From Candidatus Sungiibacteriota bacterium (GTDB taxonomy: Bacteria > Patescibacteriota > Minisyncoccia > Sungbacterales > HO2-52-23): a stretch of DNA of 38,509 nucleotides. The position numbers and the translations under genes were made by a program. Numbering within the stretch: the stretch's first letter is position 1; each line of letters begins with the position of its first letter. Shown here piece after piece: positions 21,694 through 27,852 of this stretch. Below the pieces are notes generated by a model, which had not been told where the DNA came from, searched no databases, and was given only the letters and a program-made list of their open reading frames with translations. Where the stretch lies: NCBI GenBank assembly GCA_016181585.1, contig JACOYX010000018.1, positions 1-38,509 on the forward strand. Direction: 5' to 3'.

Positions 21694-22437
21694 TTAAAAA
21701 CCGTTCCTATACGCAGGAGCGGTTTTATTATTCGTGTCCATTTTTTCAAAACATATGCCGTAAGGGGCATATAGTTTGGAAAATGCGCGGACAATGAGGA
21801 GAAGCACTTCTTTGCATGTGATGCGAATACCAAGCTCTTCCTCAAGCGAGGTCATGGGAATATCAAGTCCGCAAGGGAAGATATAAGAAAAATAGCGGAG
21901 ATTGGTTGATACATTGAATGCAAAGCCGAAACGGGTAATGAGGTGTCCATCTGGCGCGCGCAGCGCTGAAATGGCGCGCTGGGTAATTTTGCGTTTTCCG
22001 GTAATCCATACGCCCTTTGCATAATGATATTGTGAAAGTTCGGAATGGGGTGTCGGTGCGGCAGAGAGTCCGAGTCCCGAAAGAAAGCCGATTATTCCAT
22101 CGATGAGCGACGTGCTAAATTCGATAAAATCAAAAGGCAATACGGTGATATCAAGTATCCAATAGGCGACAAGCTGTCCGGGGCCGTGATATGTTGCATT
22201 GCCTCCGTGGCGGACTTTTATAATCGGCACATTGAGGTTTGCAAATATTTCGTACGGCACGCGGAGCTGCGTTTCGATCGGCTTATTATGGCTATAGGTA
22301 AAACAATGCGGATGTTCCGCGAATAAAAGCATATTTTTTCTTTCCCCTGCGTAATTTTTTTGAAAGAGCGCATCTTGAAACGCTAGTACGGATTCAATCG
22401 GTTGCATGCCAAGCCAATCCCAATAGATGGTGTGCAT
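21694..22437 (-). CDS. lipB: Lipoyl(octanoyl) transferase LipB
   Basis: RHGGNATYHGPGQLVAYWILD, GKRKITQRAISALRAP, FSYIFPCGLDIPMTSLEEE. Confidence 0.93.
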   Translation of the reverse strand: MHTIYWDWLGMQPIESVLAFQDALFQKNYAGERKNMLLFAEHPHCFTYSHNKPIETQLRVPYEIFANLNVPIIKVRHGGNATYHGPGQLVAYWILDITVLPFDFIEFSTSLIDGIIGFLSGLGLSAAPTPHSELSQYHYAKGVWITGKRKITQRAISALRAPDGHLITRFGFAFNVSTNLRYFSYIFPCGLDIPMTSLEEELGIRITCKEVLLLIVRAFSKLYAPYGICFEKMDTNNKTAPAYRNGF

Positions 22438-22468
22438 AGTACCCCCTCTTTTCCTTTGGTTCTGTTAT

Positions 22469-23365
22469 ATGGTAATTTACCATAAAGAACAAGCAGTATA
22501 CGAAGCTAAGCTTCGTGTGTTACAATGTTTCGTAGATATGCAAGAAGAATATAACAAAGAACGGTTTCATCCGTTCGCTCAAAAAGAGGTTGCTACGCCG
22601 CATGACCCGGGAAAAGAATTTCAATCGTTTATGGAAGAACGCATGCGGCTTTTGCTTGCGGAAAAAGAAAAGTATCGCGGTCCCGATGTACCCGTAGAAA
22701 AAGTAATTTCTGCATTGTATACAGAAAGCGAAATTGGCCGTCTGGTTCGGGAAAATCCTCGATTGCAATTTAGCGTCACTCAAGCGCGGTGGACCGGATC
22801 ATTCGCGTCAATGGCGGAGCGGGGCAATTATTATCTTAAGAAAACGCTTGCGGAATTTTTATTTAACCAAGAAATGCGCAAAAAAATTAATCTCGGGCTT
22901 GCCTATCACGGAGTTGCGGGAGAGGTGATGGCGCGCCAAGTGCTGGAGAAAAGCGGTGTGGCAACCGCCCATGCGCGTCCCGAGCTTGATGCGGCATGCG
23001 GGGTTGATTTGTTGGGATATAAAAAAACAACAGACGGCAGGGAATTGTATTTTGCCATCCAAGTTAAAACAAATCCGACGAGCGAAAAAGTACGTTTTGA
23101 AAAATTGACGAAAGAATCAATGCAGGCGTTGAAAAGCAAAGCCGCTCGGTCGCCGGATGAAGAAGAAATTGTAAACAGCGGGGATCGGGCTATTGAAGCG
23201 GTATCACACATGCGGCGGTTATCTCAAAAACCATACGAGCCGTTTCTTTTTGTCATGCCATCAATTCGTGTGGTACATGACATGCATGCGGTTAATTTAG
23301 GGTCATTTAAGCTGAACCCGGAACTAGTTGACAAATTCGCTCAAAATGTGTTAAAAATTAGTTAG
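22469..23365 (+). CDS. Hypothetical protein with PD-(D/E)xK nuclease-like core
   Basis: GEVMARQVLEKSG...CGVDLLGYKKTTDGRELYFAIQVKTNP resembles an E-D-QxK arrangement; start codon uncertain. Confidence 0.5.
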   Translation: MVIYHKEQAVYEAKLRVLQCFVDMQEEYNKERFHPFAQKEVATPHDPGKEFQSFMEERMRLLLAEKEKYRGPDVPVEKVISALYTESEIGRLVRENPRLQFSVTQARWTGSFASMAERGNYYLKKTLAEFLFNQEMRKKINLGLAYHGVAGEVMARQVLEKSGVATAHARPELDAACGVDLLGYKKTTDGRELYFAIQVKTNPTSEKVRFEKLTKESMQALKSKAARSPDEEEIVNSGDRAIEAVSHMRRLSQKPYEPFLFVMPSIRVVHDMHAVNLGSFKLNPELVDKFAQNVLKIS

Positions 23366-23640: not shown

Positions 23641-23680
23641 AACACCCCTCTCCAAAGAGAGGGGAATGGGTGTTTTTTAC
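23641..23680 (-). terminator. Nested hairpin terminator at the end of the minus-strand array
   Basis: aacacccctctccaaagagaggggaatgggtgtttt. Confidence 0.65.
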
Positions 23681-24036
23681 GGATACCATAGATAGTATCC
23701 TATCGCAACTCCGGCGAAAATGCCGAGAATCGCAAAAAGAACAGGGAGTGGGTTATGTATGGCTCCATGAAAGAGCCATACGATTACCTGCCACAGGTGG
23801 GGAATAAGCCATCGAAAGAAATTCCATACCTGCCCGATGACCCATGAAATCAGGCCGAGAGCGAGGTGGACAAAACCTTCGATGGTGCGGGCGGCGAGAC
23901 GGCCAGTCCACCGAAAATAGGGGGCGGGATTTCCGTGATTCCGATGAATGGAGATCACGAGTCCAAAACCCCAGAAGAAAACAACAAATCCTAGTACTGA
24001 CGCGACGAGCCGCCAGCAATAATCCATTTTTACCAT
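23677..24036 (-). CDS. Small membrane protein
   Basis: Hydrophobic segments YCWRLVASVLGFVVFFWGFGLVI and PLPVLFAILGIFAGVAIGYYLWY; overlaps the upstream ORF stop. Confidence 0.6.
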   Translation of the reverse strand: MVKMDYCWRLVASVLGFVVFFWGFGLVISIHRNHGNPAPYFRWTGRLAARTIEGFVHLALGLISWVIGQVWNFFRWLIPHLWQVIVWLFHGAIHNPLPVLFAILGIFAGVAIGYYLWYP

Positions 24037-24173
24037 CCTTGCCTTCTGTAAAACTCTTTCTGTTTTTTCCGGTTGTACCCCTTATTGCCCTTTGGTGATC
24101 CTTGCGGACCGCCAGTTTTTTGCGGCAAAGGAATTCTGCCGAGCTCAATTTTCCGTTTGGCTTCTTTCCTCAT
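24030..24173 (-). CDS. 47-aa basic small protein (not in supplied ORF track)
   Basis: aaaaggagaagagaaaaggATG; MRKEAKRKIELGRIPLPQKTGGPQGSPKGNKGYNRKKQKEFYRRQGW; TAA overlaps next ATG (ATGGTAA). Confidence 0.5.
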   Translation of the reverse strand: MRKEAKRKIELGRIPLPQKTGGPQGSPKGNKGYNRKKQKEFYRRQGW

Positions 24174-24313
24174 CCTTTTCTCTTCTCCTTTTACTAGTTT
24201 TCAAAAATCTATCCTCCCATCAAAATTTCCGATTGTTCAGAATCTTTGATGGATGCTCAAGATTGTTTCTTGAGCAGATTTTTTCATCTCCATTGTTTAA
24301 AAAAAGTCACAGA

Positions 24314-24580
24314 CTACTGCTTCCGGAAACCGAGAATGGCGGGAGTTTTTTGAACTGAAGATTTTACTGTCTCAAACTCCCGTTCCAGTAAACTCCACTC
24401 CTCGTCCGAAAGTTCGACGGTTGCGTCGATGTCGGGATATTTTTCTGGTGGAAACTTGTCGATGTTCCGTGCACCGATTTTGTTGAGTTTTTGGAAGAAC
24501 TCGAGTTGCTCTTCCATCCACTCGTGATAAGGCGGCAGTTCTTCCTCTACCATTTTCTTAAAATCACGAACGGTTCCCAT
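24314..24580 (-). CDS. Small acidic hypothetical protein
   Basis: 88 aa with SD aaaaaggaggaatcATG. Confidence 0.55.
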   Translation of the reverse strand: MGTVRDFKKMVEEELPPYHEWMEEQLEFFQKLNKIGARNIDKFPPEKYPDIDATVELSDEEWSLLEREFETVKSSVQKTPAILGFRKQ

Positions 24581-24984
24581 GATTCCTCCTTTTTATTTTC
24601 CGTAAAGATCTTTAGGGTTTCCCCCTTTCAGAAATTTGAACTATTCAAATCTCTGAAAGGGAGGCGAGTCTTTTCTCGCGCTCCGGTTTTTTGAAAGGGT
24701 TTGGGGCTCCCGGATAATATGCGTGCTCTCGCACTGCATCAGCGAAATGCTGTGGACATGTCTCCGTCGAGCGATGACAATAGCCCAATTATCCGAGGAG
24801 TTGTTCCCCTTACATTGCACCCTTGGGCAACGCACGCGGCTTGGCATTTCCGCGCGTGGGTTTTGGTGAGTGTCTTATATGACCCGGCTTTTATTATATG
24901 TTCAAGAGCTGCCAACTCTCTCCCATATACGCCCAAAACCGGGTGACACCACCTCTCGAGGGACCCATCGACCCCCGAACCCTT

Positions 24985-25197
24985 CTACTCGACAGGGCCG
25001 CCGCATTTGTGACCGCAATGATGACCAAATGCTTTTCCCTGCCGGCGGAGCAGCCGCTTCACTTTGCGTTCATCACGCTTGGTGAGTTTTAACGGCTTGC
25101 CCCTCGCAACCGCCATATCCTGGTAGCAGTCATAGCGGAACGACACGGAGATTTTTCTTCCCCGGTACCAAACCGATTCACCGCAATACCATGCCAT
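24985..25197 (-). CDS. Small basic Cys/His-containing hypothetical protein
   Basis: 70 aa with SD aaaaaggaggatcgccATG. Confidence 0.55.
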   Translation of the reverse strand: MAWYCGESVWYRGRKISVSFRYDCYQDMAVARGKPLKLTKRDERKVKRLLRRQGKAFGHHCGHKCGGPVE

Positions 25198-25639
25198 GGC
25201 GATCCTCCTTTTTCAAAATTTTAAATAAAATTAAAGAACAACGGACGAGAGTGTGGCGTGGCGGCGCCGTACTCCCTGGGGACACCGCGACTTGCGTCGC
25301 GTGTCCGCGGGCGATAATTTCATCATTTTTATATTTATCGCCTAGCCCCATTGATTTGCTACCGCCATAACTCCCCGAAGGGATTTCAAGTAATCCATGA
25401 TGAGCGCGGTTATTCAGGGGTTTGGTCCGCGCTACGATTGGGAACTTCTCCCATCAAAATCTTTATCTTTCCTTTTACAAAAGAAAAACTTTTATGGAAG
25501 CCCGAACTTTGATTTATTCGTTCGGGCACTTTTGCGCAATACGGTCTCGCTCATGCTTATAAGAATATGGCTAGTATTCTTTTATTTCACATGAATCCCC
25601 GTTCACGTGCCTTGCGTTGGCACGGGAGGTTTCGAAACT

Positions 25640-25936
25640 CTAGTATTCCGATTCCAGAGTTTCGGCAATCTTTCGATGCAATTCTCCACTTGCAATCATG
25701 CTTTTAGGCAGATTACAAAGGAATGCTCCGAGAGGATTGCATGACCCATCACATCTACCCCTTACAATGCTCGTAAGATGTTGTGCGTGGACCACGCGCT
25801 CTTCCTCCATATAAATGACGTCAAGCGAGTCTGCGTGGAAATCACCATTGCATCCGTGATTCCACTGGAGCTTTCCGTCATCTTCCGTCATACCATGTTC
25901 AGTGGTCTGACGATAAGTTCGGAATTTTCCTTGCAT
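25640..25936 (-). CDS. Small hypothetical protein
   Basis: 98 aa with SD aaagaaagggggtgaaccATG; stop lies in a hairpin cgaaactct...agagtttcg. Confidence 0.55.
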   Translation of the reverse strand: MQGKFRTYRQTTEHGMTEDDGKLQWNHGCNGDFHADSLDVIYMEEERVVHAQHLTSIVRGRCDGSCNPLGAFLCNLPKSMIASGELHRKIAETLESEY

Positions 25937-26090
25937 GGTTCACCCCCTTTCTTTCTCCTGCGAGCCACCGCAGGATTGGTTTTGGTAAAAAAGAATTTTC
26001 GGAACTTCTCCCATCAAAATCTCTTAATGATTAAGAAACTTTGATGGGAGTCCGATGATCTTGTGAATCATCGGACAAACTAGCAGTGTT

Positions 26091-26294
26091 TTACTCAGGG
26101 ATTTTGTTTGCCACCGCCGCGAGACGGTCGGCTTCCGCCCGGAGTATGTTCACTGCTTCTACCAACGCGACTTTGCAGCCACGCTGGTCGGGGTACACAT
26201 TCAAACCGCATCCTGCCTCCTGCGCTTTATGTAAGGCATTGAGCGTGTTACGTACCCCACTGAAAATTTCATGTACTAAACCTTCATTAACCAT
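26091..26294 (-). CDS. Small helical hypothetical protein
   Basis: MVNEGLVHEIFSGVRNTLNALHKAQEAG... with SD aaaaggaggagaagATG. Confidence 0.55.
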   Translation of the reverse strand: MVNEGLVHEIFSGVRNTLNALHKAQEAGCGLNVYPDQRGCKVALVEAVNILRAEADRLAAVANKIPE

Positions 26295-26342
26295 CTTCTC
26301 CTCCTTTTGGTCCTCTTTTTGGTTGGCCAATGGTTTGTTTAA

Positions 26343-26660
26343 ATTTTGTTTTGTATAAAAGAACTTTGGAATGGCCAGCGGAGCCGCAAAAAATACGCGG
26401 ACGCTGGCTATAAAATATGCGGCTAGGGCATCTCCGTTACTGGTCTCGCACAGGCTACCTCCTTGCCCGAGCTCCAGTTCCCACTAAAACCTTTGCGGCC
26501 GCTTACGCAAAGGGGTTTCCCAAGTATCCATCGGGGCAGCGATGGATCGCTCCCGTGGGAGTGCTTGGGATTCCGGCCTCAAAATGCCGGAAGGAGATGT
26601 TTCGCTTACCGGTTCTTACTGAAAGAACCGCTTGCGTCTCGAGGCCTCGTCCCCGAGAAT
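26343..26660 (-). ncRNA. Dense hairpin cluster (candidate structured RNA / long leader)
   Basis: Hairpins include gccagcg...cgctggc, cctttgcggccgcttacgcaaagg, atccatcggggcagcgatggat, ctcccgtgggag, ccggcctcaaaatgccgg, ggttcttactgaaagaacc. Confidence 0.45.
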
Positions 26661-26787
26661 AAGCAAAAACGTTGGGTTTCAGATCTCCCATCGAAGCAAG
26701 AGAGCGTAACGAATAATTATATAAGGTTCGCTCTCGCGCTTCGATGGAAGCAGAAGGCGCTGGTCGCTTTCTGCTGTTGCGGGGTTT

Positions 26788-26949
26788 TTACTTACTACGC
26801 GGGTCCTCTGCCTCCCGCGCCTCCAGCCAGCTTTCGCGGCTGGAGTGGACAACACCCCGATTGTCGGTGACATATTGATAATCGACGGGGCGGACCCCCT
26901 CAACGATCATCGCTAGCCGCTCCTCCAACGTAATTGTGGTGTTTTCCAT
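26788..26949 (-). CDS. Small hypothetical protein (first ORF of the array)
   Basis: MENTTITLEERLAMIVEGVRPVDYQYV... with SD aaaaggaggaaggaaaATG; same frame continues upstream to GTG at 27000. Confidence 0.5.
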   Translation of the reverse strand: MENTTITLEERLAMIVEGVRPVDYQYVTDNRGVVHSSRESWLEAREAEDPRSK

Positions 26950-26994
26950 TTTCCTTCCTCCTTTTCTAAGAACATAGAGAGATTGTAAATTTTC

Positions 26995-27093
26995 TCCCAC
27001 CGAAGTAGCGACTGGTTGTTAGCCACTAGAAGTTAGTAATTTTTTAGTTTACTAGTGGCTAGGAACTAGTTGCTAGTCGCTATTTCGGTGGAA
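26995..27093 (-). promoter_or_regulatory. Long leader hairpin
   Basis: tcccaccgaagtagcgact...tagccactag / ctagtggcta...agtcgctatttcggtgg. Confidence 0.75.
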
Positions 27094-27170
27094 GGGGATA
27101 GAATTACCCATCCCTCAATCCCCACCTCCTTCTTAAAATGTTTAAGTTTTTCCCAAACCGTTATGCCTAC

Positions 27171-27198: not shown

Positions 27199-27439
27199 GT
27201 AGCGATGACATAATGAAGAAGTAATCCCTAAAAAATGGCTTATATAAAGCAAAAATTAGAGATAAATATTTTTATCTCAAGTAAAACATTTTATCTTTTT
27301 AAAACCGAAGATAATTAAAAATTAACTTACTCTTCACCAAAGGTGCATCGGATCTTTCCATTTTATAAGTAAGAAATAGTGTGAGAGGTATGGGCAAATA
27401 TCTAGACTGGCGCACTTCAGGCTTGAATTTTACATTTAC

Positions 27440-27468
27440 TTGACACCACATGTATTTATGTATATAAT
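27440..27468 (+). promoter_or_regulatory. Perfect consensus promoter TTGACA-17-TATAAT
   Basis: ttgacaccacatgtatttatgtatataat. Confidence 0.8.
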
Positions 27469-27474
27469 ATGGGT

Positions 27475-27750
27475 AGATGCCGCGCACTAAGGGCGGCATC
27501 TAACTGGTTCTTTCTGGAGGGTTCTTGAGTAAATGTCTTCTCTACTGGATTCCTGCGCATGGCAGGAATAACAGAAGAGGGTGCTCAAGGAATTGGTGAG
27601 CGAGGGCGTGTTCTCGACCACTTAAGTCCGACCGGACGGGTTTAGGACATGCTCAAAAAGTTTTTTCAAGCTCGCCATTTTTTTGTTCTCCTGTATGGCG
27701 AACAAAAAAAGAACCCCCTCCGATTCAGAGAGGAGGGATAATATAATGGG
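27475..27750 (+). ncRNA. Candidate structured ncRNA
   Basis: Consensus promoter, no ORF, gatgccg...cggcatc, then nested rod cttgag-tcttct-attcctgc/gcaggaat-agaaga-ctcaag; 3' boundary uncertain. Confidence 0.5.
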
Positions 27751-27852
27751 CGGCATGTAATTTTTTGGTCCCTTTTATATTTTTGGAAAATTTAAAAAAA
27801 AAGAAAAACGACGGAAAAAGAAAACAAAAACAAATTGGTATAATTAAAAGGG

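Follow-up and report, generated by a model that had tools for sequence, protein, structure and literature searches.

A hairpin-punctuated array of small-protein genes adjoining a TrmB-family regulator recurs in Patescibacteria

The window analysed here is a stretch of 38,509 nucleotides (nt) from the 867-kb genome of a Candidatus Sungiibacteriota bacterium (GCA_016181585.1, contig JACOYX010000018.1, positions 1 to 38,509), and coordinates are positions within it. It contains a minus-strand array of seven small open reading frames (ORFs), designated ORF1 (26788-26949, 53 amino acids), ORF2 (26091-26294, 67 amino acids), ORF3 (25640-25936, 98 amino acids), ORF4 (24985-25197, 70 amino acids), ORF5 (24314-24580, 88 amino acids), ORF6 (24030-24173, 47 amino acids) and ORF7 (23677-24036, 119 amino acids). 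All seven begin with ATG and share no visible sequence similarity. A recognisable Shine-Dalgarno (SD) sequence lies ahead of six of them, and the seventh overlaps the sixth. A sigma-70-type promoter matching the consensus at 12 of 12 positions (TTGACA-16-TATAAT, 27198-27171, minus strand) points into the array, which ends at a terminator-like stem with a T tail (23664-23645, minus strand). Similar CTTGACA..TATAAT promoters are found at most of the other arrays described below, whose small ORFs likewise have strong ribosome-binding sites. None of the seven ORFs had a Pfam match at E<=1, and the PHROGs library returned one insignificant match. These observations agree with the first-pass annotation of the sequence, which had described the ORFs, the SD sequences of most of them, the promoter, the terminator and the lack of recognisable domains. 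It had missed that the hairpins of the array form one family, that a GTTCTTT motif accompanies them, and that a TrmB-family regulator adjoins the array.

A repeat search yielded the recurring word CTCCCATCAAA, which is an arm of six hairpins. The six form a single family with the stem base CCAYCAAAG...TTTTGRYGGGAG, and one lies 5' of each of six of the seven ORFs. On the minus strand they occupy 26992-27095 (H1, CCACCGAA...TTCGGTGG), 26683-26751 (H2, CCATCGAAG...CTTCGATGG), 26006-26051 (H3, 53.8 bits, with a GC-rich hairpin before it and AAGTTCC after it), 25446-25501 (H4, 43.3 bits), 24620-24663 (H5, CTTTCAGAG...TCTGAAAG, 42.3 bits) and 24212-24256 (H6, 47.7 bits). A second, GC-rich hairpin often lies directly 5' of the conserved one. 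The strict core of the family, TTTGATGGGAG, is confined to the array and has no occurrence elsewhere in the 867-kb genome.

Eight arrays supplied 32 distinct hairpins, whose arms showed two-sided changes in 11 of 14 pairs, with 46 cells carrying such changes compared to 13.2 in shuffles, none of 500 of which scored as high. Full hairpins from several arrays had compensatory two-sided changes in 14 of 17 pairs; because pairing was one of the grounds on which the hairpins used for covariation had been chosen, the paired percentage is inflated, whereas the compensatory types are not. Held-out matches to a covariance model gave 182 two-sided cells versus 71, in an alignment that was fitted to the model and counted both strands of many sites. 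The stem therefore covaries strongly, and the lack of covariation that the first-pass annotation had named as grounds for rejection was not observed. Read in the sense direction, the stem retains G-U and U-G pairs at set positions, and for nearly all sites the score of the ORF strand exceeds that of the opposite strand; these results indicated that the RNA of the ORF strand is the conserved entity. In a comparison with Rfam 15, only transfer RNAs reached the gathering threshold in the window and six array loci, and all matches within the array were below it.

A first search with the hairpin pattern matched one other genome, G105 (genomes are given by working numbers), directly upstream of its homologue of ORF6; this hairpin is homologous to H6. 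The seven window proteins, joined and compared with 384 genomes of the class, identified distant homologues of ORF3 to ORF6. The loci of G105 and of G100, a Parcubacteria metagenome-assembled genome (VMFT01000014.1), share the plan of the window: a TrmB-family gene, a promoter, and small ORFs with hairpins. Further arrays were read in G196, G022 and G015. The covariance model, built on hairpins of several arrays, was then searched against class and phylum genomes and matched 66 of the 384 class genomes, often in clusters, and 10 of 287 phylum genomes, some of them in other classes. Hairpins were also found singly, ahead of isolated small ORFs. The recurring arrays, the hairpin family and the small proteins without library matches support the earlier proposal of a candidate undescribed system, and the array is apparently of an undescribed type that recurs in many distantly related Patescibacteria. 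Our literature search found no description of the RNA module, the arrays or most of the proteins, and nothing on TrmB, RNA motifs or Rho in Patescibacteria, within a coverage that leaves out most subscription journals, so that a prior description is possible.

The first-pass annotation had suggested a check for shuffled or conserved gene order, and ORF4 was found to precede ORF6 in the window, G105 and G100. This order bears on whether the array is made of cassettes, with hairpins acting as single-stranded DNA recombination sites, similar to integron attC, that shuffle unrelated small ORFs. Such a mechanism would account for a hairpin at each ORF, for unrelated ORFs on one strand and for gene content that varies between genomes, features in which the array does resemble integron cassette arrays. 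However, the hairpins precede the ORFs with a sequence motif in between, the wobbles at defined pairs and the higher sense-strand scores fit RNA rather than DNA, and the order of ORF4 and ORF6 is fixed in three genomes. We regard shuffling by recombination as very improbable; an attC-like array was judged unlikely from hairpin properties and ORF order, and not from searches for an integrase or the attC core (RYYYAAC/GTTRRRY). Among the roles listed earlier, the ORF4-ORF6 order and the RNA-type wobble pairs thus favor a regulated small-protein operon or an RNA-processed polycistron, and disfavor a cassette array or mobile locus.

The proteins differ in how widely they occur. ORF6 (PLPxKTGGxxGxxKGxKGYxR) is the most widespread array protein found, and ORF4 (MAWYC...CxHxCGGP) has homologues with 64-66% identity in G105 and G100. 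ORF3, which carries a CDGSC motif, has a homologue in G319; among 55 relatives, it was found in the window itself only. Distant homologues of ORF5 occur in G121 and G083. No homologue was found for ORF1 or ORF2 in the 384 class genomes, nor for ORF7, which is hydrophobic and probably a membrane protein. Recurring families among 135 array ORFs included ORF6-like (9), CxxC zinc-ribbon-like (9) and ORF4-like proteins (3), among others; the ORF6-like count is biased because ORF6 served as a query. Searches of Pfam, PHROGs, NCBIfam and PADLOC with array proteins gave only scattered single matches, and matches to phage protein families among 94 array proteins were of the same kind. The predicted structure of ORF4 (mean predicted local distance difference test score, pLDDT, of 66) was too poor for a fold search. 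Purifying selection, the absence of which had been named beforehand as evidence against the array, was detected in ORFs with homologues, a set that leaves out ORF1, ORF2 and ORF7: the ratio of nonsynonymous to synonymous substitution rates (dN/dS) was approximately 0.2-0.25 where dS was measurable, and most changes fell at third codon positions.

Phage early regions typically combine strong promoters with small unknown ORFs that have strong SD sequences, and a stretch weakly similar to ORF6 is encoded in three viral contigs. On these grounds the array could derive from a prophage or satellite, either as its early region or as a decayed remnant; the first-pass annotation had named a decayed prophage fragment as grounds for rejection. 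These three contigs lack the hairpin, however, and neither ORF4 nor the strict hairpin pattern was matched in 2.9 million viral contigs; ORF3 had no match in phage records. No PHROG match in the window was significant, and no virion or replication genes adjoining arrays were seen in the loci read. The flanks of the array read as housekeeping genes, the conserved ORFs are under purifying selection, and the TrmB neighbour recurs. A phage origin is, accordingly, given very little weight. Beside the array, at 22427-23365 on the plus strand, lies a gene for a 312-amino acid protein without a Pfam or PHROG match.

The non-coding DNA of the array, which had been described as packed with stable hairpins, was far more stable in folding than dinucleotide shuffles. 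The z scores were -5.9 (24640-24990), -6.8 (26300-26787) and -4.8 (25200-25640), and 0 of 100 shuffles were as stable. Three structured segments lie on the minus strand: one at 26365-26682, with a core (ACTGGAGC...CCAGTAA with TTGGGAAA) common to the G015 array; one ahead of ORF4 (25240-25445); and one 3' of ORF4 (24664-24984), with a core (AAAACCC...GCGTTGC-loop-GCAATGT) common to G105 and G100. In the G105 array, a near-identical 144-nt non-coding segment occurs twice (L020 4036-4167 and 4873-5004), each copy ending in a hairpin 5' arm; this is a recent duplication of an RNA element. The segments could themselves be the main products, as non-coding RNAs co-transcribed with small RNA-binding proteins and assembled with them into ribonucleoproteins. 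Their length (200-390 nt) and stability, the cores kept between genomes, and the basic or CxHxC-like character of ORF4 and ORF6 are consistent with this. The cores, however, are known from only two or three homologues per RNA, too few for covariation, several cistrons have no segment between them, and that the proteins bind RNA is a guess based on their composition. We consider this explanation improbable.

The hairpin is accompanied by a second element. Upstream of 27 ORFs in three arrays the commonest heptamer, which had not been preselected, was GTTCTTT, present in 12 regions compared to 0.2 expected. At held-out loci found by the hairpin only, 23 of 47 hairpins had GTTCTTT in the 60 nt that follow (0.7 expected), compared to 3 in the upstream control and 0 in antisense. 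The consensus of 81 sites, A-GTTCTTT-nnAAAA, is of the boxA type, that is, G(C/T)TCTTT followed by an A-rich stretch. In G554, which belongs to another class, GTTCTTT was found 3' of both clustered hairpins. The window has boxA-like GTTCTTT sites on the minus strand 70 nt before ORF2 (26358-26364) and 42 nt before ORF4 (25233-25239), and a degenerate ATTCTTT before ORF3 (25990-25996). A further GTTCTTT at 26622-26628 was not counted, as it lies inside a predicted stem. The consensus equals GTTCTTTAAAA, the natural boxA of the CRISPR (clustered regularly interspaced short palindromic repeats) array of Legionella pneumophila Lens, which raised the transcript of a synthetic array approximately tenfold (PMC7862264). 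NusB (PF01029) is encoded in 12 of 13 array genomes, including that of the window (E=4.3e-37).

The third recurring feature is the regulator. A TrmB-family gene (PF01978; 27882-28664, minus strand; E=2.6e-14, 53.2 bits versus a cut-off of 25.6) lies upstream of the array and is the single PF01978 gene of the 867-kb genome; a TrmB sugar-binding domain was not reported by Pfam for it at E<=1. TrmB genes were found near the array or the ORF6 homologue at 12 of 15 loci with enough flank, compared to approximately 0.7 expected (an estimate from gene counts); of 20 loci identified through the hairpin alone, 8 had one nearby. A candidate operator for TrmB, the decamer AAATGGCTTA, lies at 27233-27242 on the plus strand. 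The window, G105, G031 and G177 have it upstream of their array promoters, and in G100 it lies upstream of the TrmB gene, from which a hairpin separates it; this evidence is only suggestive because the decamer was picked after looking. The window also contains a divergent consensus sigma-70-type promoter (27440-27468, plus strand). Of 12 arrays examined, 8 (the window, L021 9127 +, L057 11952 +, L118 10015 +, L126 8603 +, L121 9484 +, L028 and L063) have a divergent promoter that matches at least 11 of 12 positions and lies at a distance of 104-241 nt from the array promoter, with a chance of approximately 1% per locus in shuffles. Where TrmB lies upstream, such a promoter would drive an unannotated transcript (27469-27760 in the window) toward the 3' end of that gene. 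The predicted divergent transcripts of L118 and L126 resemble each other and contain a tiny ORF led by an SD sequence.

Taken together, the array is probably a regulated small-protein polycistron with an RNA module at most cistrons, read by a complex that acts on the polymerase or on the RNA. We propose that it would be transcribed as one polycistronic unit from the promoter at 27198-27171 to the terminator at 23664-23645, and that the neighbouring TrmB-family regulator probably switches it through the AAATGGCTTA-type operator. Most cistrons have a leader that starts with the hairpin CCAYCAAAG...TTTTGRYGGGAG; in approximately half of the cases AGTTCTTTnnAAAA comes some tens of bases or less after it, and a strong SD sequence and the ORF follow. 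The nascent module may recruit a complex to RNA polymerase, as the boxB-boxA of ribosomal RNA (rRNA) leaders does with NusB-S10, and this complex could let the polymerase cross the long structured untranslated segments. The RNA would then fold, and cleavage or stabilisation at every hairpin would provide each small protein with a leader of its own. The data partly support this model of a TrmB-controlled polycistron onto which a Nus-type or another RNA-binding complex is loaded at the hairpin and boxA-like modules, and we give it a little less than even confidence.

Several observations weigh against it. Exact GTTCTTT is present in only two window leaders, the rest being degenerate or without the motif, and some arrays (G177, G031 and G117) carry hairpins without the heptamer. 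No TrmB gene adjoins the arrays of G015, G018 and G019. The best-known role of boxA is the suppression of Rho, and none of the 13 array genomes, that of the window included, yielded Rho (PF07497) in a search that finds it in 9 of 14 controls; Rho suppression therefore cannot be the purpose of the motif. In addition, four relatives have CCCTTTAACAAAC, GCCCTTTGACAA, AACTTTGAAAA and CATCTTAACAAAC rather than GTTCTTT in their rRNA leaders, a comparison that rests on relatives as the bin of the window genome holds no 16S gene. Because Rho was not found and the rRNA-leader forms differ, we describe the motif as boxA-like and refrain from classing the array among Nus antitermination units. The complement of AGTTCTTT had no conserved site in the 16S rRNA of four relatives. 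The leader of the G177 array (L062 10190-10160, minus strand) holds CCTTTGACAA, the same ten bases as the boxA-like site of its own rRNA leader, in a single instance. The 16S genes of relatives in the same order (L075/L141 in G015, L077 in G019) appear to be interrupted by intron-like insertions near the 5' end.

The same observations on Rho and the rRNA boxA would suit a different explanation, in which the hairpin and AGUUCUUU are a cis element of translation or mRNA stability that acts per cistron; an RNA-binding protein or nuclease, dedicated to the element and specific to the lineage, would bind it, with RNase III/Y-type punctuation and no involvement of Nus factors. The motif sits between the hairpin and the SD sequence of single ORFs, 19-74 nt ahead of the start, and single hairpins precede isolated small ORFs, as would be expected of such an element. 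UUCUUU could also pair with the AAAGGA part of the SD sequence. Simple SD pairing is no explanation, however, since GTTCTTT is rigid and both the sequence and the distance of the SD are variable, and the A-rich tail of the motif matches boxA of other bacteria. We regard a cis element of this kind as possible but rather doubtful.

The proposed polycistron resembles known systems in part. Like rRNA boxB-boxA(-boxC) leaders and CRISPR boxA, the arrays have a hairpin followed by GTTCTTT or GCTCTTT and an A-rich element, long structured stretches of untranslated RNA, and an encoded NusB. They differ in that the module is repeated before many small genes, the stem base is conserved in sequence, Rho was not found, and the heptamer is not that of the rRNA leaders of relatives. 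Lambdoid nut sites likewise combine a hairpin and boxA in one RNA module; in the arrays, the order is hairpin then box, as in rrn, with many copies per predicted transcript, no N-like protein identified and no phage genes. The regulator shares with classical TrmB proteins a winged-helix TrmB domain and a position next to the promoter that it presumably controls, yet no TrmB sugar-binding domain was matched in it by Pfam at E<=1, and its target would be a small-protein array rather than sugar genes.

The Patescibacteria, a very large group of which most members are uncultured, have tiny genomes. Kilobases of structured untranslated RNA and small proteins are kept across many families, and the array must therefore pay for itself. 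We tentatively suggest, with rather less confidence than an even chance would warrant, that it represents an undescribed lineage-wide expression system in genomes where Rho was not found, in which a covarying hairpin and AGUUCUUUnnAAAA, read by a Nus-derived or lineage-specific complex, would mark and co-regulate an open set of rapidly evolving small proteins, together with structured RNAs, all under a single TrmB-type switch. With the hairpin model, arrays can be sought in any genome and the function of their small proteins can be addressed. A signal resembling boxA in genomes for which the search returned no Rho would be informative about roles of boxA and NusB other than opposing Rho.

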